This document shows positions 6,495 through 56,880 of a DNA stretch of 64,000 nt, piece by piece. Numbering within the stretch: the first letter of the stretch is position 1; each line of letters opens with the position of its first letter. Under the pieces are notes generated by a model. The model searched no databases. It was not told the origin of the DNA and was given only the letters and a program-made list of their open reading frames with translations. The translations under genes and the position numbers were made by a program. This DNA is from Polaromonas sp. (GTDB taxonomy: Bacteria; Pseudomonadota; Gammaproteobacteria; Burkholderiales; Burkholderiaceae_C): NCBI GenBank assembly GCA_028291985.1, contig JAQGNE010000063.1, positions 1-64,000 of the forward strand, read 5' to 3'.

Positions 6495-6545
6495 TTTTTA
6501 ATAGCTGCAAGTCCCCGTACCTATTGGGCTAGAGGCCGATTTGAT
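6495..6545 (+). repeat. Dispersed short repeat, copy 1
   Basis: The right two thirds of the element are well kept: TTTTTAATAGCTGCAAG, a CCCCGTACCTAT spacer, then GGGCTAGAGGCCGATTTGAT. The same final block occurs inverted at 41544-41615. It lies directly after the LysR stop region. Confidence 0.75.
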
Positions 6546-6642
6546 CGATAAACAGGCTAGGTCACAGCTGGGCAAAAGCCGCGGCGTTGGAGCCAGCGAG
6601 CAGGCGGGCAGAAGGCAGAGCCGCGGGGCTGACCGTTGCAGG

Positions 6643-6828
6643 TCAGCGAACGACGCTCAGATAGGCGCAAGCGGCGCTGCGCAGCTCTTGTGCATGATGC
6701 GGGTCCCGACCGGCATCGGCCTCGGCGCGCTCCATCAGATTCTTGGCCACGCCTTCAACTGCATGGGTATCGCCAGAAGCCACAGAGGCGTGAATGAAAT
6801 GGGCGATATGGGAGAAGATGCTGCGCAT
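6643..6828 (-). CDS. Small hypothetical protein (61 residues)
   Basis: Frame encoding an amphipathic, His/Ala-rich peptide beginning MRSIFSHIAHFIHASVAS and ending CAYLSVVR. The residue pattern looks like two or three helices, and the frame has better codon statistics than the overlapping plus-strand frame at 6541-6855. There is no clear ribosome site; upstream is an AT-richer stretch with AGGGAAAACCCTTATTC that could be promoter. I believe similar short proteins occur in related bacteria, but that is memory and not shown here. Confidence 0.5.
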   Translation of the reverse strand: MRSIFSHIAHFIHASVASGDTHAVEGVAKNLMERAEADAGRDPHHAQELRSAACAYLSVVR

Positions 6829-7118
6829 GTAGAAGTCACTGCAACAATGCGGTGAAAAGTTAGGGTTCTTGGAGAATAAGGGTTTTCCCTAGTTTTACAA
6901 GGCGCCCTCGCCCCTACTACGCGAAATGACGATGCAAAAGAAACATAAACCCTTGCGGATGGGACAAAAACCACCGATGTGGTGCGGAAGGTGGCATCGT
7001 CAAGGGTCTATGCTGGCAAGTCTGGATGCCGCGCGTAACACCAGAAGAGGCGACCGCTTGTTCTACAAGCCCGGCAGATCATCCCCACACCGTGTTTCCG
7101 GCATCACCGTCAAGAACC

Positions 7119-7970
7119 ATGAAGATCCAGCTTTATTCCGACCTGCACCTGGAGTCCAACCCGCATTTCATGGGACGGCCTCTTGCCGGAGCTGATGTGC
7201 TGGTGCTCGCGGGTGATATCGGCTCTTACCAGCCGGGCTCGCAACTGCTGGACCTGCAGGTGCCCGATTTCGGCCTTGCGCGGTTTTCACCGTTGCCCGC
7301 TGGGCAGGGCGGAGCCGGCTGGCCGACGCCAGTGCTGTTTGTGCCGGGCAACCACGAATATGACGGGCTCGACATGGACGAGGCCCACGCCCGGCTGCAG
7401 CAGACCTGCCAGCGCCTGGGCATCATCTGGCTGGAGCGACAAACCGCAGTGCTGCACGGCGTGCGCTTTGTCGGGAGCACGCTGTGGGCCGACTTTGACG
7501 CGCTGACAGCGGAGCAAGCCTTCACTGCCGAAGTCACGCTGGGGGAGCAGTTGAAGGCGCGAGAAAAGGCGTTTCGGGCGGCCAATTTTTACCTGAAGAA
7601 AAACCATTCGCTGCGCGGCGGCGAGCCGATGCTGGCAGAAGCCATGCGGGACGAAAGCCTGGCCAGCCAGCGCTGGTTGCGAGAGGCACTGCTAGCACCC
7701 TTCGAAGGCCCAACGGTAGTAGTCACACACTTCGCACCCAGCTTGTCGAGCGCCGACCCGCGCTACGGCGTAACGCCAAGCACGGCAGGCTTTTGCAATT
7801 CGCTGGATGACCTGCTGCCCCGGGCGCAGTTATGGCTGCATGGGCACCTGCACTGCCCGGTGAATTACATCAAGCACGGTTGCCGGGTCATGGCCAATCC
7901 GCTGGGTTATGCGCGCAAGGGAGAGCAGGAGGCCTTCAAACCCGATTTACTGATTGAAATTGGCAGCTAG
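7119..7970 (+). CDS. Metallophosphoesterase
   Basis: Calcineurin-like phosphoesterase of 283 residues. All five family blocks are visible in order: DLHLE near the N-terminus, GDIG, GNHEYD at about 75-80, THFAPS in the C-terminal third, and HGHLHCP. These supply the ligands for the two-metal centre. The frame is open upstream to 7026, but MKIQLYSDLHLES is the standard beginning, so the ATG at 7119 was chosen. Substrate is unknown. No signal peptide, so cytosolic. Confidence 0.88.
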   Translation: MKIQLYSDLHLESNPHFMGRPLAGADVLVLAGDIGSYQPGSQLLDLQVPDFGLARFSPLPAGQGGAGWPTPVLFVPGNHEYDGLDMDEAHARLQQTCQRLGIIWLERQTAVLHGVRFVGSTLWADFDALTAEQAFTAEVTLGEQLKAREKAFRAANFYLKKNHSLRGGEPMLAEAMRDESLASQRWLREALLAPFEGPTVVVTHFAPSLSSADPRYGVTPSTAGFCNSLDDLLPRAQLWLHGHLHCPVNYIKHGCRVMANPLGYARKGEQEAFKPDLLIEIGS

Positions 7971-7990
7971 CCCTTGCAGAATAAAGGGAT

Positions 7991-8012
7991 GTAGCTATTA
8001 TTTCAATAGCAT
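7991..8012 (+). repeat. Dispersed short repeat, truncated copy 2
   Basis: TAGCTATTATTTCAATAGC is the AT-rich inverted repeat that starts the element. The GGGCT...AGGC half is missing. It sits in the 48-base gap between two convergent genes. Confidence 0.55.
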
Positions 8013-8018
8013 TTTCGG

Positions 8019-8795
8019 TCAATGGCCTTGCCGGGTGTTGAGACCATCAAAACAGGTGCCCATGACCAGCTCAACGATATCGTCATCGTTGTACAGGCCG
8101 CTGGCTTTCAGGAATTCAAGCACGGGGTCGCACGCACGGGAGTACAGCGTGTACATCACCACCAGCGGCGGCACTTTGGCGCTCAGGGAGCCGTCTTGCT
8201 GCGCGGCCTCGATCCATGCACCCATGCGGTCGCTGACCTGCATCAGCCCGTCCAGATAGGCGGCGTTGTTCATCAGATTGGACCGCAGGGTGGAATTCTG
8301 ACTGGGCAGCGATGGCATTTCCCCTGCCAGTTGCAGCTGCATCATCCAGCGGGTCAGTGCGCGCAGCTGGTCCAGCGGCCGGCCATCGGCCGGCAACGAG
8401 GCCAGGAACGCCAGCGCACGGCCGAGTACCCGCACCATGGCGGCGGCTGCCAGGTCTTCCTTGCTGGAGAAATGCTTGTAGAGGCTGGCTTTTGCGATGC
8501 CGACCTCGGCGGCAACCTCGTCGACCGTCATCAGGTCAAACCCTTTTTCGGCCAGCAGGCGGTTGACTGCCTGCACGATGGCATCCTCGCGCGCCTTGAG
8601 CATCTGCGCCTTGAAGGAAACCTTGGCGGTCACGCCATGGCCGGCTTTCAGCGCGCTCCTCAAGGCAGGCTTTTGAACGGTGGCATCCGGTGCCAGCGCT
8701 TCCGGCGTCAAGGCCAGCGCTTCTGGCTGGGCGGCCAGGTCGGGCGTGGATGTGGATGGGCTGAAGACGCTGGAGCTGGCGCTGGACGTGGGCAT
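8019..8795 (-). CDS. TetR-family transcriptional regulator
   Basis: A 258-residue regulator. A disordered Ala/Pro/Ser-rich extension of about 75 residues precedes a TetR DNA-binding domain: ILEAVNRLLAEKG-like helix, then MTVDEVAAEVGIAKASLYKH, the helix-turn-helix, followed by FSSKEDL. The remaining residues are a helical ligand domain. The frame runs back to 9041, but the ATG at 8795 (MPTSSASSSVF) removes an implausible Arg/Cys-rich leader. The ligand is not predictable. It is convergent with the phosphoesterase gene. Confidence 0.85.
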   Translation of the reverse strand: MPTSSASSSVFSPSTSTPDLAAQPEALALTPEALAPDATVQKPALRSALKAGHGVTAKVSFKAQMLKAREDAIVQAVNRLLAEKGFDLMTVDEVAAEVGIAKASLYKHFSSKEDLAAAAMVRVLGRALAFLASLPADGRPLDQLRALTRWMMQLQLAGEMPSLPSQNSTLRSNLMNNAAYLDGLMQVSDRMGAWIEAAQQDGSLSAKVPPLVVMYTLYSRACDPVLEFLKASGLYNDDDIVELVMGTCFDGLNTRQGH

Positions 8796-8988
8796 GGCCC
8801 ATTCTAGCCAGCGACAAAGCCGCAGCGCCTGATTTATGTAGCATCGACCTATTTCGTGCGCGCATCGTCCAGATTGCGACTGATGAGTAAGCCGTCGCCC
8901 AGCCCTACAAGCGAAGCGGCCATGCCTACCGGGCCTGGCACATGGCCCCGATGGCGTGCGTTGCTGCCTGTACTCATACTGCTTGCTT

Positions 8989-11471: not shown

Positions 11472-12848
11472 ATGAAAGTCATTGTTTTAGGCGCAGGCAT
11501 CATCGGTGTCAGCACCGCCTGGCATCTGCTGGAGCGCGGCCACGAGGTCACCGTGGTTGACCGCCAGCCCGATGCTGCGCTCGAAACCAGCTTTGCCAAC
11601 GCGGCCCAGATATCGGTGAGCTACTGCGAGCCTTGGGCGAACCGCGACGCGCCGCTCAAGGTCCTGAAATGGATGTTTCGCAACGACGCACCGCTGCTGT
11701 TCAGGCCCACACTCGACCCGCACCAGTGGGTCTGGGGGCTGAAGTTTCTGGCGCAGTGCAACGACACCGCGTTTGAGCGCAATGTGCAGCAACTGGTGGC
11801 ATTGGGCGCCTACAGCCACGCTGCTTTGAAAGACGTGGTGAACGCCACCGGCATTGAATACAGCCGCCTGGAGCGCGGCATTGCGCATTACTACACCGAC
11901 CAGAAATCATTCGACACCGCGGGCGAGGCTGCCGCGCTGATGCGCCGTTATGGGGTTGACCGCCGCGTCGTGAGCCGCGACGAGTTGTTCCAGATCGAGC
12001 CGGCTTTCAAGTCGTTTGCGCACCGCATCGTCGGGGGTACCTACACCTCCAGCGACGAAAGCGGCGATGCACGTGTCTTCACACAGGCGCTGGCGCGGCA
12101 CTGCGCCGGCCTGGGCGCCAAATTTTTATACAACCACGACATCGAGCGCCTTGACAAGGTAGGCAATGCTATCGAATCAATAGCAGTAAACCAGCGCAAT
12201 ACAAGGGCTGGAAGCACAAAAGGCTTGAAACAGACCTTGTTGAAGGCCGATGCGGTGGTGGTGGCCTGCGGCTCTTTCAGTGCGCCGCTGCTGCGTGCCG
12301 TGGGCGTGAGTTTGCCGATCTACCCCGGCAAAGGGTACAGCGCCAGCTTCAAGCTGTTGCAACCCGAGCGTGCGCCCTATGTCAGCACCATTGATGATGA
12401 AGTCAAATGCGCGATGAGCCGTTTGACTGGCGCAGGCAACGGCGGTCAAAACGGCGCCAGTTTCCTGCGAGTGGCCGGCACGATTGAGGTCGGGGGCTAC
12501 GACCTGTCGCTCGACACACCCCTGGCCAGAGCGCGCTGCAAGATGCTGGCTGACCGCATCGAGGAGGTCCTGCCCGGGGTCTGCGATACACGGCTGGAAG
12601 AAGAAGGCGGTTCGCCGAACTTCTGGACCGGCCTGCGCCCCGCCACGCCGACCAACATTCCCTACATCGGCAAGACGAAGGTGGACAGGCTGTGGGTGAA
12701 TGCCGGCCATGGCACCCTGGGCTGGACCCACGGCGCTGGGTCTGGCAAGGCCATGGCAGAACTGATTTCTGGCGAGCGGCCAAGCATGGACTTCCATTTT
12801 TACGGCGTCGAAAGTGGCGCTTCTGCGCCGCGCGCGCATGCCGCCTGA
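11472..12848 (+). CDS. dadA: D-amino acid dehydrogenase (small subunit type)
   Basis: FAD enzyme that oxidises D-amino acids to 2-oxo acids and ammonia, passing electrons to the respiratory chain. The N-terminal Rossmann motif is VIVLGAGIIGVSTAWHL, the second FAD contact is VVVACGSFSAPLL, and the C-terminal TPTNIPYIGKT and NAGHGTLGWTHGAGSG blocks are typical. At 458 residues it is longer than the usual 415-435. The surplus is at about residues 233-253, where DNA of the dispersed repeat family is read in frame. No alanine racemase gene (dadX) follows. Confidence 0.92.
   Translation: MKVIVLGAGIIGVSTAWHLLERGHEVTVVDRQPDAALETSFANAAQISVSYCEPWANRDAPLKVLKWMFRNDAPLLFRPTLDPHQWVWGLKFLAQCNDTAFERNVQQLVALGAYSHAALKDVVNATGIEYSRLERGIAHYYTDQKSFDTAGEAAALMRRYGVDRRVVSRDELFQIEPAFKSFAHRIVGGTYTSSDESGDARVFTQALARHCAGLGAKFLYNHDIERLDKVGNAIESIAVNQRNTRAGSTKGLKQTLLKADAVVVACGSFSAPLLRAVGVSLPIYPGKGYSASFKLLQPERAPYVSTIDDEVKCAMSRLTGAGNGGQNGASFLRVAGTIEVGGYDLSLDTPLARARCKMLADRIEEVLPGVCDTRLEEEGGSPNFWTGLRPATPTNIPYIGKTKVDRLWVNAGHGTLGWTHGAGSGKAMAELISGERPSMDFHFYGVESGASAPRAHAA
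12168..12230 (+). repeat. Dispersed short repeat inside dadA, copy 3
   Basis: GCTATCGAATCAATAGC, then a spacer, AAGGGCTGGAAGC and a following A-rich stretch match the layout of the other copies (AT inverted repeat, 18-25 base spacer, GGGCT..AG block). It is read in frame as residues 233-253 of DadA, between the strand of the FAD domain that ends HDIERLDKVGN and the next block LLKADAVVVACG. Confidence 0.7.
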
Positions 12849-12946
12849 GCGCGCGTGCGGGTGCATCGACGAGCGGACACGTGCCGTAGGTTCTGCGCTT
12901 TACGCCGCGACCCCGAATGAACGCAATGCCGCCCCGTTCGCCGATT

Positions 12947-14695: not shown

Positions 14696-14810
14696 GGCAA
14701 GCTCTCCTGATGGGTAAACAAGGTGTGGCCGGGCGGACCGAAGGCCATGGTGAAGCGATCATACGAGGACCGGAACACCCGGCGTAAGCAGGCGTTGCAG
14801 GTCATATTTA

Positions 14811-14870
14811 TGCTATGTTTTACATAGCGTTTAGCCTCTGTTTATAAAGGGCTAGCGCCGGTTTTTATCT
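14811..14870 (+). repeat. Dispersed short repeat, copy 4
   Basis: TGCTATGTTTTACATAGCG inverted repeat, a spacer, then AAAGGGCTAGCGCCGG and a TTTTT run. It lies in the 332-base gap between the divergent thiolase gene and the gene at 15028. Nothing else in this gap is recognisable apart from presumed promoters. Confidence 0.75.
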
Positions 14871-15027
14871 ATAAATGGTGTCAATTGAACCCATCTTGTC
14901 CTACGTCCGCTGATTTGATGTGCCGACGGCGAGACCGCAGCACGACGCGCAAAGTCAGGCGCTAGCTGGCGGTGGGGCCTTCATGCTGAAGGCCCACAGG
15001 CGCCGCTGGACCACCAGGAGCCCCCGG

Positions 15028-21365: not shown

Positions 21366-23528
21366 TCAGGCAGTGCGCGCTTTCGCAAAATTCACATACC
21401 AGTCCAGGCAGGCTGGGTTGGTCATGGCATCGCGGTTTACCACCTTGTCGATGGGCTGGCCGAGCAGCAGCTTCTTGATCGGCAGCTCCTGCTTCTTGCC
21501 AGACAGGGTGCGCGGCACCTCCGGCACCTGAAAGATGTCATTGGGCACAAAGCGCGGCGACAAGGCCGTCCTGACCGCATCGTTCAACCGCGCCTTCATG
21601 GCGTCATCCAGGGCCTGCCCGGGTTGGAGCACCACGAAGAGCGGCATGTAACTGTCCCGGCCGAGGTATTCCAGGTCGACGACCAGCGAATCAAGCACCT
21701 CGGGCAGCGCCTCAATGGCGCTGTACAGCTCGCTGGTGCCCATGCGCAGGCCATGCCGGTTGATAGTAGCGTCGCTGCGGCCATAGATGATGCAGCTGCC
21801 TGACGGTGTGACCTTGAGCCAGTCGCCGTGGCGCCAGACGTTGGGGTACATGTCGAAGTAGCTCGACAGGTAACGGGCGCTGTCCTCGTCACCCCACAGG
21901 TAGAGCGGCATGGACGGAATCGGCTGGGTGCATACCAGCTCGCCCACCTCGCCGATGACGGCCTGGCCCGATTCGTTCCAGGCTTCCACCGCGCAGCCCA
22001 GCAGACGGCACTGCATCTCGCCAGGCACCAAGGGCAGCTCACGGTTGCCGCCGATGAAAGCGCCTGCAAAGTCGGTGCCGCCCGAGATGTTGCACCACCA
22101 AATTGGTGCCCCCACGCTTGTCGCTTCTGAATTCCGATTGTCCTGAGCCTGTCGAAGGATGTCCCCCGGGGGGGCCGTGCCTTTCTCGGGGCGGCCTGGC
22201 GCGGCGGCCTGTGGATCGGTATCGACCTGCCTGCGTAGCTTGGCGAACTGCGCGCTTCCCCACAGCTGCGCCTCGGGCGAAAGCGGTGAGCCGGTCGAGC
22301 CCAGGGCGCGCACCGGGCTCAGGTCGCCGCAGGCAGACAGGTCAACCCCGGCCTTCAGGCAGTTGGCGTAGAAGGCAGCGCCAGCGCCAAAAAAAGTGAC
22401 GCCGGTTCGCGCAGCAAACCGCCACAGGGTGGTCCAGTCGGGCCGCTCCTTGCTGCCACCTGGGTTGCCATCAAAGATGCAGCAGGTGGTGCCGTTGAGC
22501 AGCCCGCTGAGTTGCGCGTTCCACATCACCCAGCCGGTGGAGCTGTACCAGTGGTAGCGCTCGCCGAAGTTGTTGCTGCTGTAGCTGCAGCCGATATCGT
22601 TGTGCAGCCCCTTGAGCGCCAGCGCCACCAGCACGGTGCCGCCATGGCCGTGAACAATCGGCTTGGGCAGGCCCGTGGTGCCGCTGGAATAGACGATCCA
22701 GAGCGGATGGTCAAACGGTAGCCACAGCGGCTCGAATGCATCCGTCCCAGCATCATTTCGGCCTCCAGCCCAATCGAATCGCTTGGTATCAGCTATTAAT
22801 TCAGCAGCATTCAGGTGGTAGTGGATGACGGTGTGCCGCACGCTGGGCAACGCGCTGCGCAACTGCGCAACCACGTCCCGCCGGTCGATGTCCTTGCCGC
22901 CGTAGCTGACGCCGTCGCAGGCGATCAGCACCTTGGGCTCGATCTGCCGGAAGCGGTCCAGCACGGCGCTGGTCCCCATGTCGGGCGCGCAGATGCTCCA
23001 TACCGCGCCCAGGCTGACAGTGGCCAGAAACGCCACCATCGCTTCGGCAATATTGGGCAGGTAAGCCGCCACCCGGTCGCCGGGCTCGATGCCCTGTGCC
23101 TTCAGATGCAGCGCCAGCGAGGCCACCTGCTGGCGCAGCGCGGGCCAGCTCAATTCTTTCGCCGGGCCAGAAGCCAGCGTTTTTTCATCATGGCTGATGA
23201 TGGCCATCATGCCCGCGGCATGGGCTGCGTCCGCATGCTTCAAAACCTGCTGCGCGTAGTTGATCTGGGCGCCCGGAAACCAGACCGCGCCGGGCATGCG
23301 CCTTTCCAGCAGCACCGCGCTGTGCGGCGTGGGCGAGTGCAGCTCGAAGTAATCCCAGAGGCTTTGCCAGAAGGCTTCAAGATCAGTCACCGACCACTGG
23401 CGCAGCGCCTCATAGTCGTCGAACCGCAGCCCACGGTTTACAGCCAGCCAGTTCTGGTACAGGCGAATCTGGGGCGTGTGCGGCACTGTGCGCGCAGGAT
23501 GGTCCGGTGTGGTGTCAGGCGTTTGCAT
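21366..23528 (-). CDS. Acetoacetyl-CoA synthetase with two repeat-derived insertions
   Basis: ATP-dependent ligase that activates acetoacetate to acetoacetyl-CoA, used in ketone body and poly-3-hydroxybutyrate turnover. AMP-forming motifs are present: YSSGTTGLPKPI at 280-291, YHWYSSTGWVMWN near 325-337, GGTDFAGAF, GDWLKV and SGKKQELPIKK with the catalytic Lys near the C-terminus. Length is 720 residues against a usual 650-670. The excess is two in-frame blocks: residues 241-260, translated from the dispersed repeat, and residues 432-475, carrying a different repeat. All core motifs are intact, so it may still be active. Confidence 0.92.
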   Translation of the reverse strand: MQTPDTTPDHPARTVPHTPQIRLYQNWLAVNRGLRFDDYEALRQWSVTDLEAFWQSLWDYFELHSPTPHSAVLLERRMPGAVWFPGAQINYAQQVLKHADAAHAAGMMAIISHDEKTLASGPAKELSWPALRQQVASLALHLKAQGIEPGDRVAAYLPNIAEAMVAFLATVSLGAVWSICAPDMGTSAVLDRFRQIEPKVLIACDGVSYGGKDIDRRDVVAQLRSALPSVRHTVIHYHLNAAELIADTKRFDWAGGRNDAGTDAFEPLWLPFDHPLWIVYSSGTTGLPKPIVHGHGGTVLVALALKGLHNDIGCSYSSNNFGERYHWYSSTGWVMWNAQLSGLLNGTTCCIFDGNPGGSKERPDWTTLWRFAARTGVTFFGAGAAFYANCLKAGVDLSACGDLSPVRALGSTGSPLSPEAQLWGSAQFAKLRRQVDTDPQAAAPGRPEKGTAPPGDILRQAQDNRNSEATSVGAPIWWCNISGGTDFAGAFIGGNRELPLVPGEMQCRLLGCAVEAWNESGQAVIGEVGELVCTQPIPSMPLYLWGDEDSARYLSSYFDMYPNVWRHGDWLKVTPSGSCIIYGRSDATINRHGLRMGTSELYSAIEALPEVLDSLVVDLEYLGRDSYMPLFVVLQPGQALDDAMKARLNDAVRTALSPRFVPNDIFQVPEVPRTLSGKKQELPIKKLLLGQPIDKVVNRDAMTNPACLDWYVNFAKARTA
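22104..22235 (-). repeat. Second repeat type inserted in the synthetase gene
   Basis: Encodes residues 432-475, ahead of the conserved IWWCNISGGTD. It contains TCCTTCGACAGGCTCAGGAC (minus strand; plus-strand 22141-22160), a REP-like word I know from many proteobacterial genomes, next to a GGGGGGCC/CCCCCGGGGG-type GC palindrome. The core GCCTGTCGAAGG is shared with the thiG-thiS gap at 60440-60473. Confidence 0.7.
22749..22808 (-). repeat. Dispersed short repeat inside the synthetase gene, copy 5
   Basis: Read on the minus strand: GCTGCTGAATTAATAGCTG, spacer, then GGGCTGGAGGCCGAAATGAT. It encodes residues 241-260 (AAELIADTKRFDWAGGRNDA) in frame between HTVIHYHLN and the conserved PLWLPFDHPLWIVYSSG region. 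Confidence 0.78.
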
Positions 23529-28170: not shown

Positions 28171-28217
28171 GTTGTTTTCAGCGTTTCATGGCTGCAGCCC
28201 AATGAATATGCGAGTTA

Positions 28218-28249
28218 TTTGCTATTATTTAAATAGCACTTTGAAGCAC
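28218..28249 (+). repeat. Dispersed short repeat, truncated copy 6
   Basis: TTTGCTATTATTTAAATAGC, the AT-rich inverted repeat of the family, without a clear GGGCT half. It lies between the thioesterase gene and the decayed phosphatase. Confidence 0.6.
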
Positions 28250-28927: not shown

Positions 28928-29364
28928 CCCTGCAAGATGGACGCGGCGCTGCCAGACGCACTGACTGGCAATGAGCGGAAAGCAGGTTCGAGCGGGACAC
29001 GAAGACCGGGTCAAGGCGATGCGTCAGTCAACCAGAACAGCGACAACTTGACAATTTCAATCAAACAGGGCCCTGGCCCTCTCAATCAGACCGTTGGTAG
29101 CTATGGAGTTAGTAGCGCCTCCAGTTTTGATGGGTCGCGAATTCGACAGCCCGTGACTGCAACCGCGTAACTGCAACATTGCTTTCGGCCGCGACAGGTG
29201 CCCGCACATATGGCTTTGCAGTGGTTCGCCCAGCGGCATTCCCTCAGGTTGCAAGCGGTTGTCCTACAGAGGTGAGCTCATCAGGCTTGCGCATTTTTCA
29301 GCAATAGTCCCTTACCCTTCTTATTAGTTCTTAATCATTAAGCCCCACGGGCACAGGGAAACCA
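28928..29364. other. Gap with no recognisable gene
   Basis: About 440 bases after the broken phosphatase. Short frames exist but lack ribosome sites and coherent residue patterns. A stretch near 29097-29140 (TAGCTATGGAGTTAGTAGC, then CCTCCAG) looks like a badly eroded copy of the dispersed repeat, but the match is too weak to list as one. The last 80 bases are AT-rich and probably hold the promoter of the receiver gene at 29365. Confidence 0.4.
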
Positions 29365-35684: not shown

Positions 35685-35698
35685 GGAAAATCGACTTT

Positions 35699-35758
35699 TG
35701 CTACAAATTTAATAGCTTTACTTGCAAACAAACATTGGGCTGCAGCCACTTTTTTCTT
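35699..35758 (+). repeat. Dispersed short repeat, copy 7
   Basis: TGCTACAAATTTAATAGC, a spacer, then ATTGGGCTGCAGCCACTTTT. It fills the 86-base gap between the parA stop and the hydrolase start and so separates parA from the genes downstream. Confidence 0.78.
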
Positions 35759-35770
35759 AAAAAAGTGTTT

Positions 35771-41543: not shown

Positions 41544-41615
41544 TGATGGCTTTATGCATCAAATCGGCCTCTAGCCCAAGCGTTGCTTGGTCTTATAGCT
41601 ATATTTATCATAGCA
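41544..41615 (-). repeat. Dispersed short repeat, best full-length copy 8
   Basis: Minus strand: TGCTATGATAAATATAGCT, a spacer of about 17, CGCTTGGGCTAGAGGCCGAT then TTGATGCATAAAGCCATC. The final block is nearly identical to copy 1 at 6495-6545 and defines the element's right end. Confidence 0.82.
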
Positions 41616-42167: not shown

Positions 42168-45100
42168 ATGAGCGCCGACCACAGGTCTTCAGTCGTGCCG
42201 GAGGTTTCTACAGAGGAAAGCCGCTGGCCGCTGGAAGCAGTTCTGTGTACTACCGAGCTTCATCAACGGCCCCCCCGCCCGCCGGATTACGAAACTGAAA
42301 ACCGCGCGCTGGTAGCCATGGCGCACGTTCTTGCAGAGGAGCCACATCGGGTGCTGCAAGCGCTGAGCGACATGGCGCTGGAGATATTCAAGGTTGATTC
42401 GGCCGGCATCAGCCTGCTCAGCGACGACCAGTCGTCTTTTTTCTGGCCGGCTATCTCTGGCGGCTGGCAGGCGCATATCGGCAGCGGCGTGGCGCGCCAC
42501 GCCAGCCCTTGCGGCACCGTGCTGGAGCACAATGCCGGGCTCCTGTTCATACGGTTTGACCGGCATTACGCGGTGCCAGAAGGCACGCCCCTACCTGAGG
42601 AAGCCCTGCTGGTTCCATTCGGCATGGACGGCAGCGCCATTGGCACTCTCTGGCTGATCACCCACGGCCCGGACCGCCATTTCGATGCCGAGGACTTGCG
42701 GCAGCTCCAAAGCCTCGCGCGTTTCGCCTCTGCGGCTTACCGCGTTGTCAAATCGGCTGAGGCCATTCAGATCAAGAGCCAGCTGACCATGCTGTTGCTC
42801 GACAAAGCCACCGAATCCAGTAACGCCCTGCGGGTTCTCCATGGACAGTTTCAGGAAAGCGAAGAGCGCTACCGTACCGTTTTTGAAGCGCTTGACGACA
42901 GTTTCTGCATCTTTGAGAAAGTTGCCGGCAGGCCTAGTGACGCGATAGATTTTCGTTACCTTGACGTCAACCCCGCGTTTGTGGCACAGGCTGGGTCTTG
43001 CGACGCCTCTAGCGTGGTAGGCCGGACCCTTCGCCAAATGTATCCGGGCATCAGCGAAGAATGGTACCTGGCCTATGACGCGGTGCTGAACAGCGGAGAG
43101 CCGCTCCGCTTTGAACATGAAATGACAGCGGGCACTCTCTGGGTTGAGCTTCATGCTTTCCGGATGCCTGGCAAAAGTCGTGACCGGCTGGCCGTCATCT
43201 TCAAAAATATCACCCAGCGCAATCTGGCAGAACTTGCCACGCGAAAAAGCGAAGCATTCAACCGAAGCATCATCGACGGCAGCCCCGACTGCATCAAGGT
43301 GCTCGACCTTCAGGGTAACTTGCTGCGCATGCTGAGCGGGCAGACCTTGTTGGGCATTGAAGACATCAGCCCCTTTCTGAACAAACCGTGGCTGGGGTTT
43401 TGGACCGGAGAAGACCGTTGTGCTGCCGAGGCGGCCGTAACAGCGGGAGCGAGCGGAAACAAGGCCGGTTTTGGCGGCTTTTTCAAAACATTCAAAGGAG
43501 AGCCGAAGTGGTGGGATGTGGCAGTCACGCCCATCCAGGGGCCTGGCGGTGAGCCGAACCGGCTGCTGGTCGTTTCGCGCGACGTAACACACCGCAAAGC
43601 AGCGGAAGACGCCTTGCAGTACCGCACGGTGCAGTTCGAGCAGCTTGTCAATGAAGCGCCGCTGGGCGTTTATATGGTGGATGCTGACTTCCGCGTATGG
43701 CACGTCAACCCGGTCGCCCTCCCCAGCTTCGGCCCCATAGAGGCGCTTATCGGGATGGACTTCGAGCAGGTCATGTATACCTTATGGCCCAAAGCAGAGG
43801 CTGTAGAGATCGTTCGCAAATTTCGCCATACGCTAGCCACAGGCGAGTCCTTTGTTGTTCCAGAGCTTATTTCCAGACGCGAGGACAAGGACGGCGAAGA
43901 TTATTTCGAGTGGCAGATTCACCGCTTGCCGTTACAGGACGGCCGCTATGGCGTGGTCTGCTATTTCAGCGATATTTCCAAGCGCGTGAATGCGGCGCGG
44001 CAGGCGCTGGCCGCCAGCGAGCGCTACCGCAACCTGCTGGCGTCGATCAACGAGGGTTATTGCGTCGTCGAACTTGTCTTTGATGCGCAGAACAAACCCA
44101 TTGATTTTGTCTACCTGGAAACCAATCCTGCGTTTGAAAAGCTCACCGGCATGCGCCAAGCACTCGGCAAACGGGTGCGCGAGCTGGTCCCTGATCTGGA
44201 AGACCACTGGTTCGAAACGCTTGGGCAGGTTGTGCTGACCGGCAAGCCCATCCGGATGACGAACGAAGCCAGGGCGATGGACCGCTGGTTCGATATGTAC
44301 GCCTTTCGCATGGGCGAGACCAGTAGCCGCAAGGCAGTGATGCTGTTCAACAACATCACCGAGCAAAAGAAGACGGAAGTCGCACTGCGCGATTCGGAAG
44401 CGCTGTACCGCAGCCTGTTCAGTTCAATGGATGAGGGTTTCTGCGTCATCGAGATGGTTTTCAGCGATGACAACGTAGCATTGGATTACCGGTTCCTGGA
44501 GGTCAATCCAATTTTTGAAAAGCAAACCGGACTGGTCGATGCGACAGGCAGGTTAATGCGCGAGTTGGCGCCAGACCACGAGCAGTCCTGGTTCGACCTG
44601 TATGGCCAGGTAGCGCTGACGGGTGAACCGGTGCGGATTCAACTGGAAGGCAAAGCACTGCAGCGCTGGTTTGATATTCAGGCCTTCAGAATAGGCGGTC
44701 CCGGTAGCCTCAAGGTTGCGATCATTTTCAACAACGTCACGAATCGCATACAAGCTGAACAGACCATGAAGGCGCAGGCCATGGCACTGATTGATATCGA
44801 CCGGCGCAAAGACGAATTTCTGGCCATGCTCAGCCATGAACTGCGCAACCCGCTGGCTGCCATTTCCAACGCCACCCATCTGTTGCAGCTGAAAAAAGAC
44901 GACGACCCCTTGCTCAAGCAGGCGCGCGGCATCATCGAGCGGCAGGTCGGGCAGCTCACCCACCTGGTTAACGACCTGCTGGAAATCTCACGCATCACCA
45001 CGGGCCGGGTGCAGCTCAGGCTGGAACAGGTGGCTGTTCAGGGCATCGTCGAGCGGGCGCTGGAAACAACGCAGCCACTGATGCTGCAGCGCGGGCACAA

Positions 45101-45953
45101 ACTGACAGTGTCTCTGCCGCCTGCACCGCTGTGGTTGTATGCAGATGCCGCGCGGCTTGAGCAGGTACTGGTCAACCTGGTAACCAATGCCGCCAAGTAC
45201 ACCGAAGAGCGCGGCCAGATTGCGGTTACCGTGCAGCAGGAAGGTGCGATCATGGTGCTGCGCGTGTCCGACACTGGCCTGGGTATTCCAGCGGAACTGC
45301 TGCCCAAGATTTTTGATTTGTTCACCCAGGCAGAGCGGTCGCTGGACAGATCGGACGGCGGGCTAGGCATCGGCCTGTGCCTGGTACAACGCCTGGTCGA
45401 GCTGCACGGCGGTGAGGTCGAGGCGCACAGCGTGCTGGGCAAAGGGAGCGAATTCGTGGTGCGGCTGCCAATGATGGCTGCGATTACCGAGCCCAGGGTT
45501 TCGCCCAATTCTGCGCTTGCCATCGGCGACAGCCCTCCGCTCAGGCTGCTTGTGGTTGATGACAATGTTGATGCAGCCCGCAGCCTGGGCGATATTTTGA
45601 GCCTCGTCGGCCATGAGGTTCGCCTGTCGCACGACGGCCTGCACGCGCTGAAGGCGGCTCTGGACTGGCGGCCTGATGTGGTGCTGCTGGACATCGGCCT
45701 TCCGCTGATGAACGGCCTGGAAGTCGCCCGCCGCATTCGCGCCCAGCCCGGGCTGCCGCCCATGGTGCTGGTCGCCCTGACCGGCTACGGTCAGGAGGCC
45801 GACCGCCAGCTGTCGCTGGAAGCCGGCTTTGAACATCATCTGGTCAAGCCAGCGGACTTCAGGGAAGTGGAGTTGATTCTTGGCTCGGTGTCGCAGTCAG
45901 AAAGTGTGCGACGTACAGCACTTTCACCGAGCACTGCGTTGGATATCGAATGA
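42168..45953 (+). CDS. GAF/multi-PAS hybrid sensor histidine kinase
   Basis: A 1261-residue cytosolic hybrid kinase. Order: GAF about 45-195; five PAS domains at roughly 235-355, 370-480, 490-610, 620-740 and 750-870; HisKA with phospho-acceptor His890 in MLSHELRNPLAA; HATPase about 995-1110 (NAAKYTEERG, DTGLGIPAELL, GGLGIGLCLVQRLV); receiver with Asp1175 in VLLDIGLPL. PAS 1, 4 and 5 resemble one another (IDFRYLDVNPAF, IDFVYLETNPAF, LDYRFLEVNPIF). There is no membrane segment. It precedes the phytochrome genes on the same strand, and its kinase core closely resembles that of the gene at 49551. Confidence 0.93.
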   Translation: MSADHRSSVVPEVSTEESRWPLEAVLCTTELHQRPPRPPDYETENRALVAMAHVLAEEPHRVLQALSDMALEIFKVDSAGISLLSDDQSSFFWPAISGGWQAHIGSGVARHASPCGTVLEHNAGLLFIRFDRHYAVPEGTPLPEEALLVPFGMDGSAIGTLWLITHGPDRHFDAEDLRQLQSLARFASAAYRVVKSAEAIQIKSQLTMLLLDKATESSNALRVLHGQFQESEERYRTVFEALDDSFCIFEKVAGRPSDAIDFRYLDVNPAFVAQAGSCDASSVVGRTLRQMYPGISEEWYLAYDAVLNSGEPLRFEHEMTAGTLWVELHAFRMPGKSRDRLAVIFKNITQRNLAELATRKSEAFNRSIIDGSPDCIKVLDLQGNLLRMLSGQTLLGIEDISPFLNKPWLGFWTGEDRCAAEAAVTAGASGNKAGFGGFFKTFKGEPKWWDVAVTPIQGPGGEPNRLLVVSRDVTHRKAAEDALQYRTVQFEQLVNEAPLGVYMVDADFRVWHVNPVALPSFGPIEALIGMDFEQVMYTLWPKAEAVEIVRKFRHTLATGESFVVPELISRREDKDGEDYFEWQIHRLPLQDGRYGVVCYFSDISKRVNAARQALAASERYRNLLASINEGYCVVELVFDAQNKPIDFVYLETNPAFEKLTGMRQALGKRVRELVPDLEDHWFETLGQVVLTGKPIRMTNEARAMDRWFDMYAFRMGETSSRKAVMLFNNITEQKKTEVALRDSEALYRSLFSSMDEGFCVIEMVFSDDNVALDYRFLEVNPIFEKQTGLVDATGRLMRELAPDHEQSWFDLYGQVALTGEPVRIQLEGKALQRWFDIQAFRIGGPGSLKVAIIFNNVTNRIQAEQTMKAQAMALIDIDRRKDEFLAMLSHELRNPLAAISNATHLLQLKKDDDPLLKQARGIIERQVGQLTHLVNDLLEISRITTGRVQLRLEQVAVQGIVERALETTQPLMLQRGHKLTVSLPPAPLWLYADAARLEQVLVNLVTNAAKYTEERGQIAVTVQQEGAIMVLRVSDTGLGIPAELLPKIFDLFTQAERSLDRSDGGLGIGLCLVQRLVELHGGEVEAHSVLGKGSEFVVRLPMMAAITEPRVSPNSALAIGDSPPLRLLVVDDNVDAARSLGDILSLVGHEVRLSHDGLHALKAALDWRPDVVLLDIGLPLMNGLEVARRIRAQPGLPPMVLVALTGYGQEADRQLSLEAGFEHHLVKPADFREVELILGSVSQSESVRRTALSPSTALDIE

Positions 45954-49554: not shown

Positions 49555-51224
49555 AAGAGCCGTATCGCCTGCTGCTGGTCGATGACAACACCGACGATAT
49601 TGCCGACTTCCGGCAGATGCTGCTGCGCGGCTCGGCCCGGCGCTATGAGTTCGTCGAGGCCCACCTCGGCAGCGTAGCGCTGCAAAAGGTGCGTGACACC
49701 CGGCAAGCGCGTATTGCGGGCGCGGACGACGACACCGCCCTCTACCCCTTCGACTGCATCCTCCTGGACTTTCAGCTGCCCGACATGAACGCACATGAGG
49801 TGCTGGCCGCCCTGCGCGGCAGCGCCGAACTGCCTCCCTGCCCGGTGGTGGTGGTGACCGGATGGAAGGGCGCTGGCAATGATGACGGCTCCAGGCTGCT
49901 GCGAGCCGGTGCGCAGGACTACATCGGCAAAAGCTGGACCAGCCCTGAAAGCCTGACGCGTGCCATTGAAAACGCGACCGACCGCTACGCCCTGCTCAGC
50001 CAGCGCCAGCACATGCGAACCCAGTTGCATGAGGCAGATGAGCGCTACCGCCTGCTGTTCAACGCTGCTGACGAGTGCCTGTGCGTGCTGGAGAAAGTGG
50101 AGTCCACCGCCGAACAGCCCATTGACTTCCGCTTTGTGGATCTCAATCCTGCGTTCCGGTCACAGTGCGGCATGGCGGGCGAAATTGGCGCCACCATCCG
50201 GCAGCTGGTGCCCGACGCACCCGACGACTGGTTTGCCGACTACGACCGCGTGTGCAGCAGCGGCCTGCCCCTGCACCTGGAGCGCGACACCTTGACCCAG
50301 GGGCGCGTGCTGGAATTGCGCGTGTTCAGGATCACCAGCGCCGGCAGTTGCCAGATCGCCATTTTCTTCAACGACATCACCGAGCGAAAAACGCTTGAAC
50401 GCCAGCTCAGGGAGCATGCTGACGCACTGGCCGAACTGGACCGGCGCAAGAATGAGTTTCTTGCGGTGCTGAGCCATGAACTGCGCAACCCGCTGGCGCC
50501 GATCTTCAACGCCCTGCACCTGCTGCGCCTGCAAAAAGACGAGGCCCCTATCCCGCGCAAGGCCCGCAACATCATCGAGCGACAAGTGGCGCAGCTCAAT
50601 CATCTGGTGGACGACCTGCTCGAAATTTCGCGCATCAACACCGGCAGCGTCAGGTTGCGTATAGAGCAGATTGCGCTCGACAGTGTTATCGAGCGGGCGG
50701 TTGAAACCGTTCACCCGCTGATGCTGCAGCGCGGGCATGAGCTGATCGTGTCAGCGCCTGAAGGCCCGGTGTGGCTTCGCGCCGATCCGGCAAGGCTGGA
50801 GCAGGTGGTGGTCAACCTGCTGACCAATGCTGCCAAGTACACCGACGAAGGTGGCCGCATCACACTGATGACGTCGCAAGAAGGCGAAGGCGTGTCGGCC
50901 GAGGTTGTGCTGCGGGTGCGGGACACCGGCATCGGTATCGCACCCGATGTGCTACCGCGTATTTTTGATTTGTTCACGCAGGCCGAGCGTTCGCTGGACC
51001 GGTCGCAAGGCGGACTGGGTATTGGCCTGTGCCTGGTTCAGCGAATGGTCAGCCTGCATGGCGGGCAGGTAGAAGCGCATAGCGTGCCCGGCCAGGGCAG
51101 CGAGTTTGTGGTGCGGCTGCCAGGGCTGCAAGCCGCCGCCCTCATGCCTGCGCTGCAGGGCGAAACGCGAGAAGACGAGACTCCTCCCGCAACAGCAGGC
51201 CCGGAGAGCCCGGCAGCGCTATAG
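49551..51224 (+). CDS. REC-PAS-histidine kinase (hybrid)
   Basis: A 557-residue kinase: receiver at about 5-135 with Asp73 in CILLDFQLPDMN, PAS at about 165-285 (IDFRFVDLNPAF), HisKA with His309 in VLSHELRNPLAP, then HATPase (NAAKYTDEGGR, DTGIGIAPDVL, GGLGIGLCLVQRMV). The frame is open to 49503, but the ATG at 49551 overlaps the preceding stop by 4 bases and gives MKEPYRLLLVDDN. The receiver-first order suggests that input phosphorylation controls the kinase output. No membrane segment. Confidence 0.93.
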   Translation: MKEPYRLLLVDDNTDDIADFRQMLLRGSARRYEFVEAHLGSVALQKVRDTRQARIAGADDDTALYPFDCILLDFQLPDMNAHEVLAALRGSAELPPCPVVVVTGWKGAGNDDGSRLLRAGAQDYIGKSWTSPESLTRAIENATDRYALLSQRQHMRTQLHEADERYRLLFNAADECLCVLEKVESTAEQPIDFRFVDLNPAFRSQCGMAGEIGATIRQLVPDAPDDWFADYDRVCSSGLPLHLERDTLTQGRVLELRVFRITSAGSCQIAIFFNDITERKTLERQLREHADALAELDRRKNEFLAVLSHELRNPLAPIFNALHLLRLQKDEAPIPRKARNIIERQVAQLNHLVDDLLEISRINTGSVRLRIEQIALDSVIERAVETVHPLMLQRGHELIVSAPEGPVWLRADPARLEQVVVNLLTNAAKYTDEGGRITLMTSQEGEGVSAEVVLRVRDTGIGIAPDVLPRIFDLFTQAERSLDRSQGGLGIGLCLVQRMVSLHGGQVEAHSVPGQGSEFVVRLPGLQAAALMPALQGETREDETPPATAGPESPAAL

Positions 51225-51240
51225 GTGCCTCACCTGTGGT

Positions 51241-51313
51241 TTGATGGCTTTCAAGCATCAAATATCGCTCCAGCCTACGTATACAAAGGGCAGTAGCTCC
51301 TTATTTTATAGCA
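51241..51313 (-). repeat. Dispersed short repeat, copy 9
   Basis: Minus strand: TGCTATAAAATAAGGAGC, spacer, GTAGGCTGGAGCGATATTTG and ATGCTTGAAAGCCATCAA, the same right end as copy 8. It directly follows the stop of the REC-PAS kinase gene. Confidence 0.72.
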
Positions 51314-51453
51314 AGCATCAGGTGTACTGCTGGTTAGGCAGCCAGGCCCGCATGCTGTCAAGCGGCGGACAGCCCCACGCGGCAAGCTGGCGTATGGTGC
51401 CCCAAGGCACGCACTGCCCGACGTCGTCAATACCTGAACCACCGGAGATTCCC

Positions 51454-52224
51454 ATGCACATACCCTCACTCAAGGAAGTCGTCAGCGCTGAAGAATGGCA
51501 ACTGCGCTGCGACCTGGCCGCCTGCTACCGCCTGGTGGCGCTGTATGGCTGGAGCGATCTGGTCTTTACCCACATCACCGCCAAGCTGCCCGCATCGGTC
51601 AGCGGAAGCGCCGGCCACCAGTTTCTGATCAACCCCTATGGTCTGATGTTTGACGAGATCACCGCATCCAGCCTGGTCAAGGTGGACAGCCAGTGCAACA
51701 AGGTCATTGCCTCCCCCTTCCCCGTCAACCCGGCCGGCTTTGTGATTCACAGCGCAGTGCATGCGGCGCGCGAAGACGCCGGCTGTGTGCTGCACACCCA
51801 CACCCGTGCGGGCGTAGCCGTCAGCGCGCAAAAGTGCGGCGTACTGCCCATCAGCCAGCAGTCAACCTTCGTGCTGGCATCGCTGGCATATCACGCGTAC
51901 GAAGGCGTCGCTTTCAAGGAAGAAGAAAAGCCGCGCCTGCAGGCCCACCTGGGCCGCGCCAACTTTCTGATGCTGCGCAACCATGGCCTATTGGTGGCCG
52001 GCAAAACGATTGCCGATGCGTTCCTGTCCATGTATACCTTCGAGAACACCTGCCGCATCCAGATCGACGCACAGGCCGGCGGCGATCTGACCGAGGTCAA
52101 TCCGCAAATCATCCAAGGTGTGTCGGAAGCCATGCGTGTCCAGACCGGCGGCATGGGCGGCGCATTTGTGTGGCCGTCGCTGATTCGCAAGCTGGACAAG
52201 CTGGATGCCAGCTACCGCGATTGA
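51454..52224 (+). CDS. Class II aldolase/adducin-family protein
   Basis: A 256-residue class II aldolase-like protein. The zinc site is given by VLHTHTRAGVAVS near residues 111-123 and RNHGLLVAG further on; a phosphate or substrate loop appears in LVFTHITAKLP and NPYGLMFDEI. Such proteins act as sugar-phosphate aldolases, epimerases or dehydratases, and the substrate cannot be inferred. The frame is open to 51106, but the family N-terminus SAEEWQLRCDLAACYRL and the ATG at 51454 with a GGAG site fix the start. Confidence 0.88.
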   Translation: MHIPSLKEVVSAEEWQLRCDLAACYRLVALYGWSDLVFTHITAKLPASVSGSAGHQFLINPYGLMFDEITASSLVKVDSQCNKVIASPFPVNPAGFVIHSAVHAAREDAGCVLHTHTRAGVAVSAQKCGVLPISQQSTFVLASLAYHAYEGVAFKEEEKPRLQAHLGRANFLMLRNHGLLVAGKTIADAFLSMYTFENTCRIQIDAQAGGDLTEVNPQIIQGVSEAMRVQTGGMGGAFVWPSLIRKLDKLDASYRD

Positions 52225-54976: not shown

Positions 54977-55006
54977 ACAGTTGGCGCAAGCGGCGCCGGC
55001 ACCCAT

Positions 55007-55035
55007 AAAAAAAGGGCTCCGTGAGCCCTTTTTTC
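55007..55035. terminator. Bidirectional rho-independent terminator
   Basis: AAAAAAAGGGCTC-CGT-GAGCCCTTTTTTC: perfect 7-base GC-rich stem with A and T tracts on both sides, placed between the convergent GST gene and the gene at 55059-55256. Confidence 0.9.
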
Positions 55036-55058
55036 TTGTCAGCCGGAGCTGAGCGAAT

Positions 55059-55256
55059 TTATTTTTTGGCTTCCATAGCCTTGCACTCGGCCTTCATCTT
55101 GTCGTCCATCTTGGGGTCGGCTTTCTTGCAGGCGGCTTTCATTTCTTCCGTTTTCTTGTCGTCCTTCATCGGAGCGCCCGCGTGCGATGCAGCAAAAGCG
55201 GCGCCGGAAACCATGGCAAACGAAACAACAACCAGACTGGACAGCAACTTTTTCAT
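55059..55256 (-). CDS. Small secreted Lys/Met/Cys-containing protein
   Basis: A 65-residue protein: signal peptide MKKLLSSLVVVSFAMVSG with cleavage probably after AFA, then a short hydrophilic mature chain rich in Lys, Met, Glu and Asp with two Cys (MKAACKKADPKMDDKMKAE, CKAMEAKK). An ATG 12 codons upstream is in frame, but the signal peptide start is clear. The composition suggests a periplasmic helical peptide; the two Cys and many Met could bind metal, which is speculation. Confidence 0.78.
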   Translation of the reverse strand: MKKLLSSLVVVSFAMVSGAAFAASHAGAPMKDDKKTEEMKAACKKADPKMDDKMKAECKAMEAKK

Positions 55257-55583
55257 ATGGGGCTCCATTTGAAACATTTTGTAATGCCACATGGCTTACC
55301 GCGCCACTGTATACGTTGTGCGCCGCGAGGCCGAGCAGGAAAACCCTCATCCGGTGACGCCCCCTAAGCGTTCACGCGCACGACCTTTCCCCATGGCGCG
55401 TTGGTGTCCCGCCAGCGAAAAGCTGCAGATGTCCCCTGCCGACGATGCAAGTGACGCAGGCCACCGGGTGTCTTGTGCTTTCAGGCGTCGCACACATATA
55501 GGTCTTGCGCTCCCGCGCGGGCCCGTTGCTAGCCGCCCGGTTTTTCCTTCAACGTCTTTCCAAACAACACCTGAGCCATCTTC

Positions 55584-56687
55584 ATGCCTACCTTGTTCGA
55601 CCCCGTCACCGCCGGCGATCTGCAGCTTTCCAACCGTATCGTCATGGCACCCCTGACACGCAACCGCTCGCCCGATGCCGTGCCGCCTGCCATGGCCGCC
55701 ACCTATTACGCTCAGCGTGCCAGCGCCGGCCTCTTGATCACCGAAGCCACGGCCATCAGCCACCAAGGCCAGGGCTATTCCGATGTGCCGGGCCTGTACG
55801 GCACCGAGCAGCTTGACAGCTGGAAGCGCGTGACCGAGGCGGTGCACGCCGAAAACGGCAAGATCGTCGTTCAGCTGTGGCATGTGGGCCGCGTGTCCCA
55901 CACCGCGCTTCAGCCCGACGGCGGCAAACCGGTGGCGCCATCAGCCATCACTGCAAAAACCAAGACCGTGCTGATCAAAAACGGCGCAGCCGAATTTGTC
56001 GACACCTCCGAGCCGCGTGCGCTGGATGCGGCCGAGCTCCCCGGCATCGTGCACACCTACCAGGCAGCCGCCCGCAATGCGGTTGAGACAGCAGGCTTCG
56101 ACGGGGTCGAGATTCACGGGGCAAACGGCTACCTGCTTGACCAGTTCCTCAAAAGGGGCTCCAACCAGCGCACCGACGACTACGGCGGCAGTCTGGAAAA
56201 CCGCGCCCGCCTGTTGCTGGAAGTCACCCGCATGGTGGCGGATGCGGTTGGCGGCGGCCGCACTGGCATACGCCTGTCGCCCGTCACGCCCGCCAACGAC
56301 GCGCACGACCCCAACCCGCAGCCGCTCTTTGAATACATCATGCGCGAGCTGGCGCCGCTCAACCTGGCCTATATCCACATCATCGAAGGCGCCACCGGTG
56401 GCCCACGGCTGCTGGACGACCGCCCGTTCGACTATCCCGCGCTCAAAACGGCATACCGGCAAGCCGGCGGGAAGGGTGCCTGGATGGTCAACAACGGCTA
56501 TGACAAGGCGCTGGCTGAAAAAGCGGTAGCCGATGGCGCCGACCTGGTGGCATTCGGTCGCCCCTACATTGCCAACCCTGACCTGGTGGAACGCCTGCGC
56601 CAGGGCGCAGCCCTAAACACGCCTGACGAGGCCACGTTTTATGGCGGCGGTGAAAAAGGCTATACCGACTATCCGGTAATGGCCTGA
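55584..56687 (+). CDS. Alkene reductase, Old Yellow Enzyme family (NemA-like)
   Basis: FMN-dependent ene-reductase of 367 residues. FDPVTAGDLQLSNRIVMAPL starts the barrel with the FMN-contact Thr in MAPLTRNRS, QLWHVGRVSH is the next FMN strand, EIHGANGYLLDQFL has the substrate-binding His and Asn, and AFGRPYIANPDL is the phosphate site. NRIVMAPLTRNRSPDAVP is the NemA/XenB pattern. Reduces activated C=C bonds and nitro compounds; the natural substrate is unknown. Confidence 0.93.
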   Translation: MPTLFDPVTAGDLQLSNRIVMAPLTRNRSPDAVPPAMAATYYAQRASAGLLITEATAISHQGQGYSDVPGLYGTEQLDSWKRVTEAVHAENGKIVVQLWHVGRVSHTALQPDGGKPVAPSAITAKTKTVLIKNGAAEFVDTSEPRALDAAELPGIVHTYQAAARNAVETAGFDGVEIHGANGYLLDQFLKRGSNQRTDDYGGSLENRARLLLEVTRMVADAVGGGRTGIRLSPVTPANDAHDPNPQPLFEYIMRELAPLNLAYIHIIEGATGGPRLLDDRPFDYPALKTAYRQAGGKGAWMVNNGYDKALAEKAVADGADLVAFGRPYIANPDLVERLRQGAALNTPDEATFYGGGEKGYTDYPVMA

Positions 56688-56824
56688 CCGATGCCCTGTG
56701 AAAGCGGCCGGCGCGGCAGTGCTCTGCGGTGACACCACACCGCCGCCGTGACGGCAGCGGGGCGGAGTCGGCGGCTGGCCTTGCAACGCCTCAGCAAAAC
56801 CTGCGCAGCACAGGCACGACGGAT

Positions 56825-56880
56825 ACTATGATATTAATAGCTAAGACTCCTTGTATTCATTGGGCTACAGGCACTTTTTG
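56825..56880 (+). repeat. Dispersed short repeat, copy 10
   Basis: ACTATGATATTAATAGCT, spacer, ATTGGGCTACAGGCACTTTT. It lies in the 228-base gap between the alkene reductase and the next gene, whose ATG is 35 bases beyond its end. Confidence 0.8.

Follow-up and report, generated by a model that had tools for sequence, protein, structure and literature searches.

A long composite motif dispersed through Polaromonas genomes is probably maintained in place and may act as a DNA uptake signal

Among the described systems of short, highly repeated bacterial DNA, the DNA uptake sequences (DUS) of the Neisseriaceae and the uptake signal sequences (USS) of the Pasteurellaceae have cores of 9-10 bp (PMC7811141), of which 1,892 and 1,465, respectively, are reported; strong uptake preference is reported from just two families in that account of 2020 (PMC7811141). 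Known uptake sequences show a graded excess of mismatched forms, and they are spaced unevenly, which has been counted as an argument against compaction (PMC1939737); the properties used for comparison here are those described in PMC1939737, PMC3630211 and PMC7811141. Two further kinds of repeat have to be considered, namely the Beta-proteobacterial repeat element (BRE; Hot et al. 2011), described from Bordetella as a unit of 75-91 bp with 69% GC often arranged in tandem, of which Polaromonas JS666 has 29 copies (PMC3110155), and the repetitive extragenic palindromes (REP and REPIN) with their REP-associated tyrosine transposases (RAYT). Here we characterize a motif of ~67 bp that recurs through 64,000 nucleotides of Polaromonas sp. 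(GCA_028291985.1, contig JAQGNE010000063.1, positions 1 to 64,000; this whole stretch is referred to as the window) and through the rest of its genome. Its copies very probably form a family of long composite DNA recognition sites, which persist and change together where they stand, not by present jumping. No description of the motif was found among the open-licence papers listed in searches on repeats, on uptake sequences and on transformation in Comamonadaceae, and the papers matched by its own letters were, by their titles, on other subjects.

Like DUS and USS, the motif is present in hundreds of copies, on both strands and inside as well as outside genes, with origins in place by point mutation and with lineage dialects; with the USS it further shares the combination of a core and spaced AT-rich parts. 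Its hosts belong to a different bacterial family from those of DUS and USS. Oriented GCTAT-first, the consensus in the own genome reads TTGCTATtaAATtAATAGCTAtaAgCCCTtGTAttaaaTGGGCTAGAGGCctATTTgaCTtAAAAA, in which an inverted repeat GCTAY-N7-RTAGC is followed by a spacer, by GGGCTAGAGGCC and by ATTTGAT..AAAA, that is, ATTTGA and a run of A. A sequence-only model, R1, was derived from an alignment (A2) of 36 copies, nine of them taken from the earlier note on this DNA, which align without gaps over 73 columns; the copy at 51249, which carries a one-base gap, was excluded. By weight matrix, the motif holds 47.8 bits of information, spread over ~67 columns, and column information drops to background immediately beyond it, so that the flanks are not conserved in the column profile. 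Within the window, R1 finds 11 copies of 25.9-59.3 bits, the next match reaching 12.6 bits. The repeat family of the earlier note is thereby confirmed: all ten positions that it named carry the layout it described and match the model, and an eleventh copy, at 29054-29117 on the minus strand, had been overlooked. As for the spacer, which had been called variable and 15-25 bases long, its letters do vary but its length is fixed, since the 36 copies align ungapped.

Strong over-representation throughout the genome, a hallmark of uptake sequences, is evident: in 850 kb of the own genome, comprising the window and further stretches, 145 copies score more than 22 bits, and none does so in the reversed sequence. 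This amounts to one copy per 5.7 kb and, if the density holds elsewhere, would extrapolate to ~600 copies in the 3.58-Mb assembly, in which a profile search found at least 150; a 20-base core with up to three mismatches matched 34 places in the genome and none in a backward control. Ten of the 11 window copies are included in the set of 145, the gapped one scoring only 16.1 bits on the ungapped matrix. The motif had been said to lie usually in gaps, which, with genes called by a simple open reading frame (ORF) script, is correct for 77 of the 145 copies; at odds with that description, 47 lie within genes, and the other 21 extend over the end of one. In the window, by the same gene calls, seven of the 11 copies touch no gene: 6486..6553 (+; 59.3 bits with R1), 14808..14876 (+; 43.4 bits), 28189..28241 (-; 35.6 bits, model columns 3-55), 29054..29117 (-; 26.6 bits), 35696..35764 (+; 35.4 bits), 41550..41615 (-; 56.9 bits) and 56821..56889 (+; 47.9 bits). 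One, at 7946..8014 (-; 43.3 bits), extends into the end of ORF 7026-7970. The remaining three are located within called ORFs: 12162..12234 (+; R1 match 12165-12218, 34.8 bits) in frame in the D-amino acid dehydrogenase gene 11472-12848 (+), 22750..22813 (-; 45.2 bits) in frame in the acetoacetate-CoA ligase gene 21366-23528 (-), and 51249..51314 (-; 25.9 bits, with the gap) inside ORF 51106-52224 (+), close to a TTG start that is itself doubtful.

What can be discerned from the orientation of the copies about the molecule that is recognized? Divergent gaps are avoided (10 of 97, p 0.008), and where the neighbouring genes run in the same direction, a mild antisense bias exists (42 of 65, p 0.025). 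The latter, together with the AT-rich inverted repeat and the A/T runs visible in the sequence, would suit an RNA element, be it a terminator, a riboswitch or a small RNA. Against such an element stand the two orientations within genes, 22 sense and 25 antisense, a consensus structure with zero pairs from RNAalifold on the 36 copies, the absence of helical covariation in their alignment (Watson-Crick z-scores up to 3.0, best for neighbouring columns) and zero matches to Rfam at gathering thresholds. The RNA signal that the earlier note had offered as one option thus receives no support, nor were compensatory changes in the palindrome seen among the 36 copies; its alternative, a signal recognized by protein, is supported as a DNA signal, and we consider an RNA element extremely improbable. 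A permissive Rfam search returned one chance-level match and, at 63937-64000 of the window (-), a thiamine pyrophosphate (TPP) riboswitch match below threshold (34.8 bits, gathering 54.3), truncated where the window stops; it may be part of a THI element that extends further.

The copies within genes allow a distinction between insertion and origin in place. In DXR and LpxB, where the motif encodes residues 72-94 and 222-244, the alignments to the Escherichia coli proteins are gapless at these positions; in RarA (residues 183-205) there are small gaps of two residues and one, and in FabD a comparison with a solved structure reveals six extra residues across the motif. In acetoacetate-CoA ligase the motif lies in a linker of 46 residues, and the linker likewise has 46 in the motif-free JS666; of the eight nearest homologues outside the family but within the order, six have 45-47 residues and two have 49 and 51, with a range of 42-53 over all rows shown. 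MoeA2 and a gene of biotin-carboxylase type can be aligned base for base to JS666 through the motif, of which a partial resemblance is left in that genome. In a scan with NCBIfam of 40 proteins that hold 41 of the 47 in-gene copies, seven hosts also being compared with solved structures, DXR, LpxB, FabD, RarA, MoeA2 and a MATE protein were within -7 to +9 residues of model length. As protein length in these conserved enzymes is thus changed little or not at all, several in-gene copies arose by substitution. Point mutation in place, as in uptake sequences, is accordingly seen at DXR, LpxB, RarA, acetoacetate-CoA ligase, MoeA2 and the carboxylase gene, though not everywhere. The motif in D-amino acid dehydrogenase is common to the loci of Polaromonas, Acidovorax, Diaphorobacter and Rhodoferax, and some motif-free relatives have the residues AIESVAV in other codons and just a few residues fewer; as the protein is 33 residues longer than its NCBIfam model, its length alone is not decisive. 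Simple insertion as the sole mode is rejected on account of the in-place sites, but is possible for a subset; some copies may go back to insertions or have their origin in loops specific to a lineage.

The sites also differ between lineages in a coordinated manner. Between the own genome and three relatives (G026, G033 and G004, ~90% identical over a 2.8-kb test region and compared over 133, 200 and 60 kb), 14 columns differ at p<1e-4, column 31, for instance, being C in 69% versus G in 97%, and in a leave-one-out test 139 of 145 and 64 of 67 copies are assigned to the correct dialect. Four copies of the own genome and eight of the trio, taken from places that correspond or adjoin, each score to the dialect of their own lineage, if only weakly in two of the eight. 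Lineage dialects, as known from uptake sequences, are therefore present in the two lineages compared, and their differences at corresponding sites imply that the sites of a genome change together while staying put. In 26 aligned pairs, conserved columns differ at 8.7% and variable columns at 26% of positions, with 16.4% at the 4-fold degenerate sites of 61 ORFs; for intergenic copies the values are 6.1% in conserved columns, 21.7% in variable columns and 13.2% in the adjoining gaps, so that the spacer diverges more quickly than the sequence around it (p 0.001; L225-L244, sites of G026 and G033). In JS666, 400 kb contain 10 strand-wise matches to the AT-rich half-site and the control none. Because the pattern is near-identical on both strands, they correspond to ~5 places, one of which is orthologous to the window copy at 35696 and shows its eroded first half. 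These half-sites are in keeping with sites that eroded once a trans-acting factor had been lost.

Copies do not appear to move between close relatives. From G026 to G033, all 23 comparable sites are occupied, each with at least 34 bits and 19 within 5 bp in length; in the reverse direction 22 of 22 are occupied, one at just 12 bits (3 of the 26 sites in G026 and 14 of the 36 in G033 were not comparable). Two of these site pairs differ in length by 71 and 1,138 bp with a copy on both sides, which may not be the same copy. From G026 to G004, whose contig offers no place for 21 of the 26 sites, the five comparable sites all keep their length, substitutions having reduced the one in acetoacetate-CoA ligase from 51 bits to 9. 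From G004 to G026, six of 11 sites are comparable, five of them with a copy (29-61 bits); the sixth is a weak site of 14 bits, which has no copy in G026 (7 bits). There is thus no clean empty site at the comparable places of these three genomes, and the presence/absence polymorphism between close relatives that is characteristic of REPIN/RAYT systems and of miniature inverted-repeat transposable elements (MITEs) was not found at the 23 and 22 sites. Nor are there recent near-identical duplicates, as the top pair identity among the 145 copies, 0.761, coincides with the 95% quantile of the maximum under the null.

A linked transposase, the other trait of REPIN/RAYT and MITE systems, could not be discerned either. 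Y1_Tnp domains occur in all 21 Polaromonas genomes tested, four motif-free ones included, and a motif copy lies within ~520 bp of the locus centre at six of 18 Y1_Tnp loci examined in motif-bearing genomes, where ~3.4 would be expected by an estimate from one copy per 5.7 kb; there is neither a correlation nor consistent proximity. Each Polaromonas genome has one or two such RAYT-like genes, in the own genome for example at C48:34021-34341. The motif resembles REP and REPIN sequences as a short, palindrome-bearing repeat of high copy number, often in gaps, and differs in lacking recent copies, a correlation with RAYT and a covarying hairpin, and in having in-place sites in genes. With BRE it shares, by the published description, the nature of a short repeat of Betaproteobacteria that is mostly intergenic with some copies inside genes; as BRE is GC-rich in Bordetella, often tandem and present 29 times in JS666, whereas the motif is AT-rich, singly dispersed and absent from that genome at E<=1e-5, we take the two as different, on the basis of that description. 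Altogether, the interpretation in the earlier note is partly supported: a mobile palindrome is disfavoured as the present mode, given the occupied sites, the lack of close duplicates and the copies that arose in place in conserved genes, and the suggested link to a RAYT is countered by Y1_Tnp genes being present in every genome tested, with or without the motif. Orthologous gaps are largely filled without a sign of insertion between close species, but this does not extend to all comparable places in JS666, as detailed below.

The distribution of the motif is patchy. At E<=1e-5 it was found in 26 of 61 genomes, all 26 within Polaromonas, and in none of 24 genomes representing other families of the order, one genome each; within the genus, 11 of 37 members lack it at this threshold, several of the 11 being incomplete genomes. 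As many congeners do without it, the motif is dispensable. Across the family, 58 of 200 drawn genomes carry it at E<=1e-6, from 46 of 141 genera, and 19 of 24 named genomes have a match at E<=1e-4. Counts per genome in relatives are lower bounds, taken from the best 150, 80 or 24 matches: at least 150 copies each in Acidovorax temperans DSM 7270, A. facilis and A. defluvii, whose record is titled UNVERIFIED_CONTAM, and 115 in A. delafieldii. No match at E<=1e-4 was found in Paracidovorax citrulli, P. konjaci, Caenimonas soli, Caenimonas sp. SL110 and Ramlibacter terrae, and a single one each in JS666 (at 4e-5, with zero copies at E<=1e-5), P. oryzae and one Hydrogenophaga. In a viral collection, a loose pattern yields at least 120 loci, among which at least 43 hold a copy above 25 bits, with none in reversed sequence; a strict pattern, which catches 22 of 212 host copies, matches just 17 stretches when run over the entire collection, and three of these represent the same phage sequence, so that phages carry the motif rarely. 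Single copies are found on viral contigs L308, L338, L344, L345, L356, L363, L366, L375 and L300, in the last within a methyltransferase-like ORF, and on several motif-bearing phage contigs the copy stands beside genes for replication initiation, primosomal proteins, anti-repressors, helicases or DNA methyltransferases.

Which process could hold so many sites to a common, drifting sequence? By analogy with DUS and USS, the chance that the sites work like DNA uptake sequences is, in our estimate, just below even, and an uptake signal is at about even odds the leading mechanism. This reading rests on the origin in place, the dialects, the occurrence on both strands, the avoidance of divergent gaps, the erosion and the lack of a significant replichore bias in orientation among the 150 best copies of one complete relative (best split p 0.021, matched by 15 of 100 shuffles, with a chromosome length set to 4,511,511 instead of the true 4,507,493 and fewer split points tried in the shuffles than in the real data). 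In such a scenario, the composite site on free DNA would be bound at the cell surface by a putative DNA receptor belonging to the transformation machinery with its type IV pilus, and DNA with good sites would preferentially be taken up and recombined. Biased transformation would thereby keep hundreds of sites near the receptor consensus; a drift in receptor preference would draw all sites along, giving rise to dialects, and with the receptor lost, sites would erode by point mutation. The motif could then be the uptake signal of naturally transformable Comamonadaceae, which would make them a third family with such a signal, and the signal by far the longest known and one composite unit, its pilus receptor having shifted between lineages and been lost in others; for this fuller version we would put the chance slightly lower still.

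Transformation has in fact been reported in the family. That of Verminephrobacter eiseniae is described as sequence specific and pilus-dependent, and A. temperans as transformed by DNA of its own species only, with no signal identified there (PMC4212676). The presence of at least 150 copies in A. temperans is no more than suggestive of a link between the motif and selective transformation, a link that was drawn after the motif had been characterized. A GspH/FimT-type pilin is a possible candidate for the receptor. Such pilins are found in 24 of 24 genomes, so that their presence does not follow the motif, but in an exploratory, post hoc comparison with paralogues mixed their best scores are lower in motif-bearing genomes (median 56 versus 68 bits, 14 versus 8 genomes, p 0.010, with two genomes of few copies set aside; p 0.004 if these are added to the motif-free ones). 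In the own genome, a domain of this type is encoded at C4:13902-14249.

Several observations, here and in the following two paragraphs, weigh against an uptake signal or against maintenance purely in place. In place of a short 9-10 bp core, the motif is a composite of ~67 bp and ~48 bits with fixed spacing; it lacks the graded excess of mismatched forms that DUS and USS display, and it is sparser than the USS (~1 kb). Outside full copies, half-motifs are in no general excess in the own genome, with 12 palindromes compared with 18 in the control and slight excesses for two narrow forms (6 versus 0 and 12 versus 4), and so few partial sites strain the assumption of a simple gradual drive as in DUS. 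ComEC is encoded in 23 of 23 genomes, whether motif-bearing or not. The three Acidovorax species whose DNA failed to transform A. temperans also carry the motif (115, at least 150 and at least 150 copies), and their failure may be due to a lack of homology, rather than to uptake, or to another dialect. The motif is, moreover, occasionally carried by phages, and the spread of pair identities among the 145 copies is slightly wider than in a shuffled-column null.

The lengths of some loci further raise the scenario of a non-autonomous mobile element of the MITE or REPIN kind. Such an element would have spread by insertion in ancient times, prior to the separation of the genera, and would since have lost its mobility, with its copies either kept or decaying. 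Flanks of 29 of 214 copies were present in the 400 kb of JS666 examined, and at four of these 29 places JS666 lacks 60-68 bp; among the other rows, six (four loci) show no net change, seven differ by 6-17 bp, four are 30-42 bp shorter and eight are longer in JS666 by 30 to 1,002 bp. Ten host proteins, MoeA1, NadE, KdtA, PgeF, HemD, MnmE, GpsA, WaaC, AceE and MetG, exceed their NCBIfam models by 21-34 residues; MoeA1 has ~31 extra residues compared with E. coli, aligned at the motif, and PgeF is longer around it, with 66 bp fewer in JS666. Full copies without a general excess of halves and the patchy distribution would follow from such an element as well. In GpsA, however, the extra residues overlap the motif just partly, and the copies that arose in place with conserved protein length run counter to an origin by spread, as do the six host proteins near model length, the absence of duplicates and of conserved flanks, the dialects and the lack of correlation with Y1_Tnp. 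We therefore consider an ancient mobile element quite improbable.

The spacing of the copies leads to another alternative, the binding site of an intracellular chromosome-organizing protein, architectural or involved in segregation, under purifying selection at several hundred places. The even spread remarked upon in the earlier note is borne out: spacing is more regular than random (coefficient of variation 0.75, compared with 0.96 +/- 0.075 for random placement, p 0.0005), and the 150 best copies on the complete chromosome of a relative are distributed evenly around it (Kolmogorov-Smirnov p 0.74). A strictly fixed composite geometry, conserved columns that evolve at about half the 4-fold rate and the avoidance of divergent gaps would likewise be in agreement with such a site. 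It is harder to reconcile with the 11 motif-free members of the genus, with the lack of a clear replichore orientation, with the imposition of the motif on conserved enzymes and with a change of dialect at hundreds of sites. Thus, a chromosome-organizing site seems to us rather unlikely, if clearly less so than an ancient mobile element.

Besides the motif, the window contains diverged direct repeats (72-77%) at 44920-45470 and 50560-51122, in two long ORFs ~5.6 kb apart, which are probably paralogous genes.

If the motif is indeed an uptake signal, a third, independently evolved and much longer example would show how the recognition of self-DNA arises, and it would provide a named target for the reported sequence-selective transformation of an earthworm symbiont and of Acidovorax. 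The dialects would, moreover, allow the co-evolution of receptor and site to be followed across lineages, and the signal could be put to practical use in the transformation of such environmental bacteria. If the motif is an architectural site instead, several hundred sites of 67 bp with dialects would represent a new kind of chromosome landmark.

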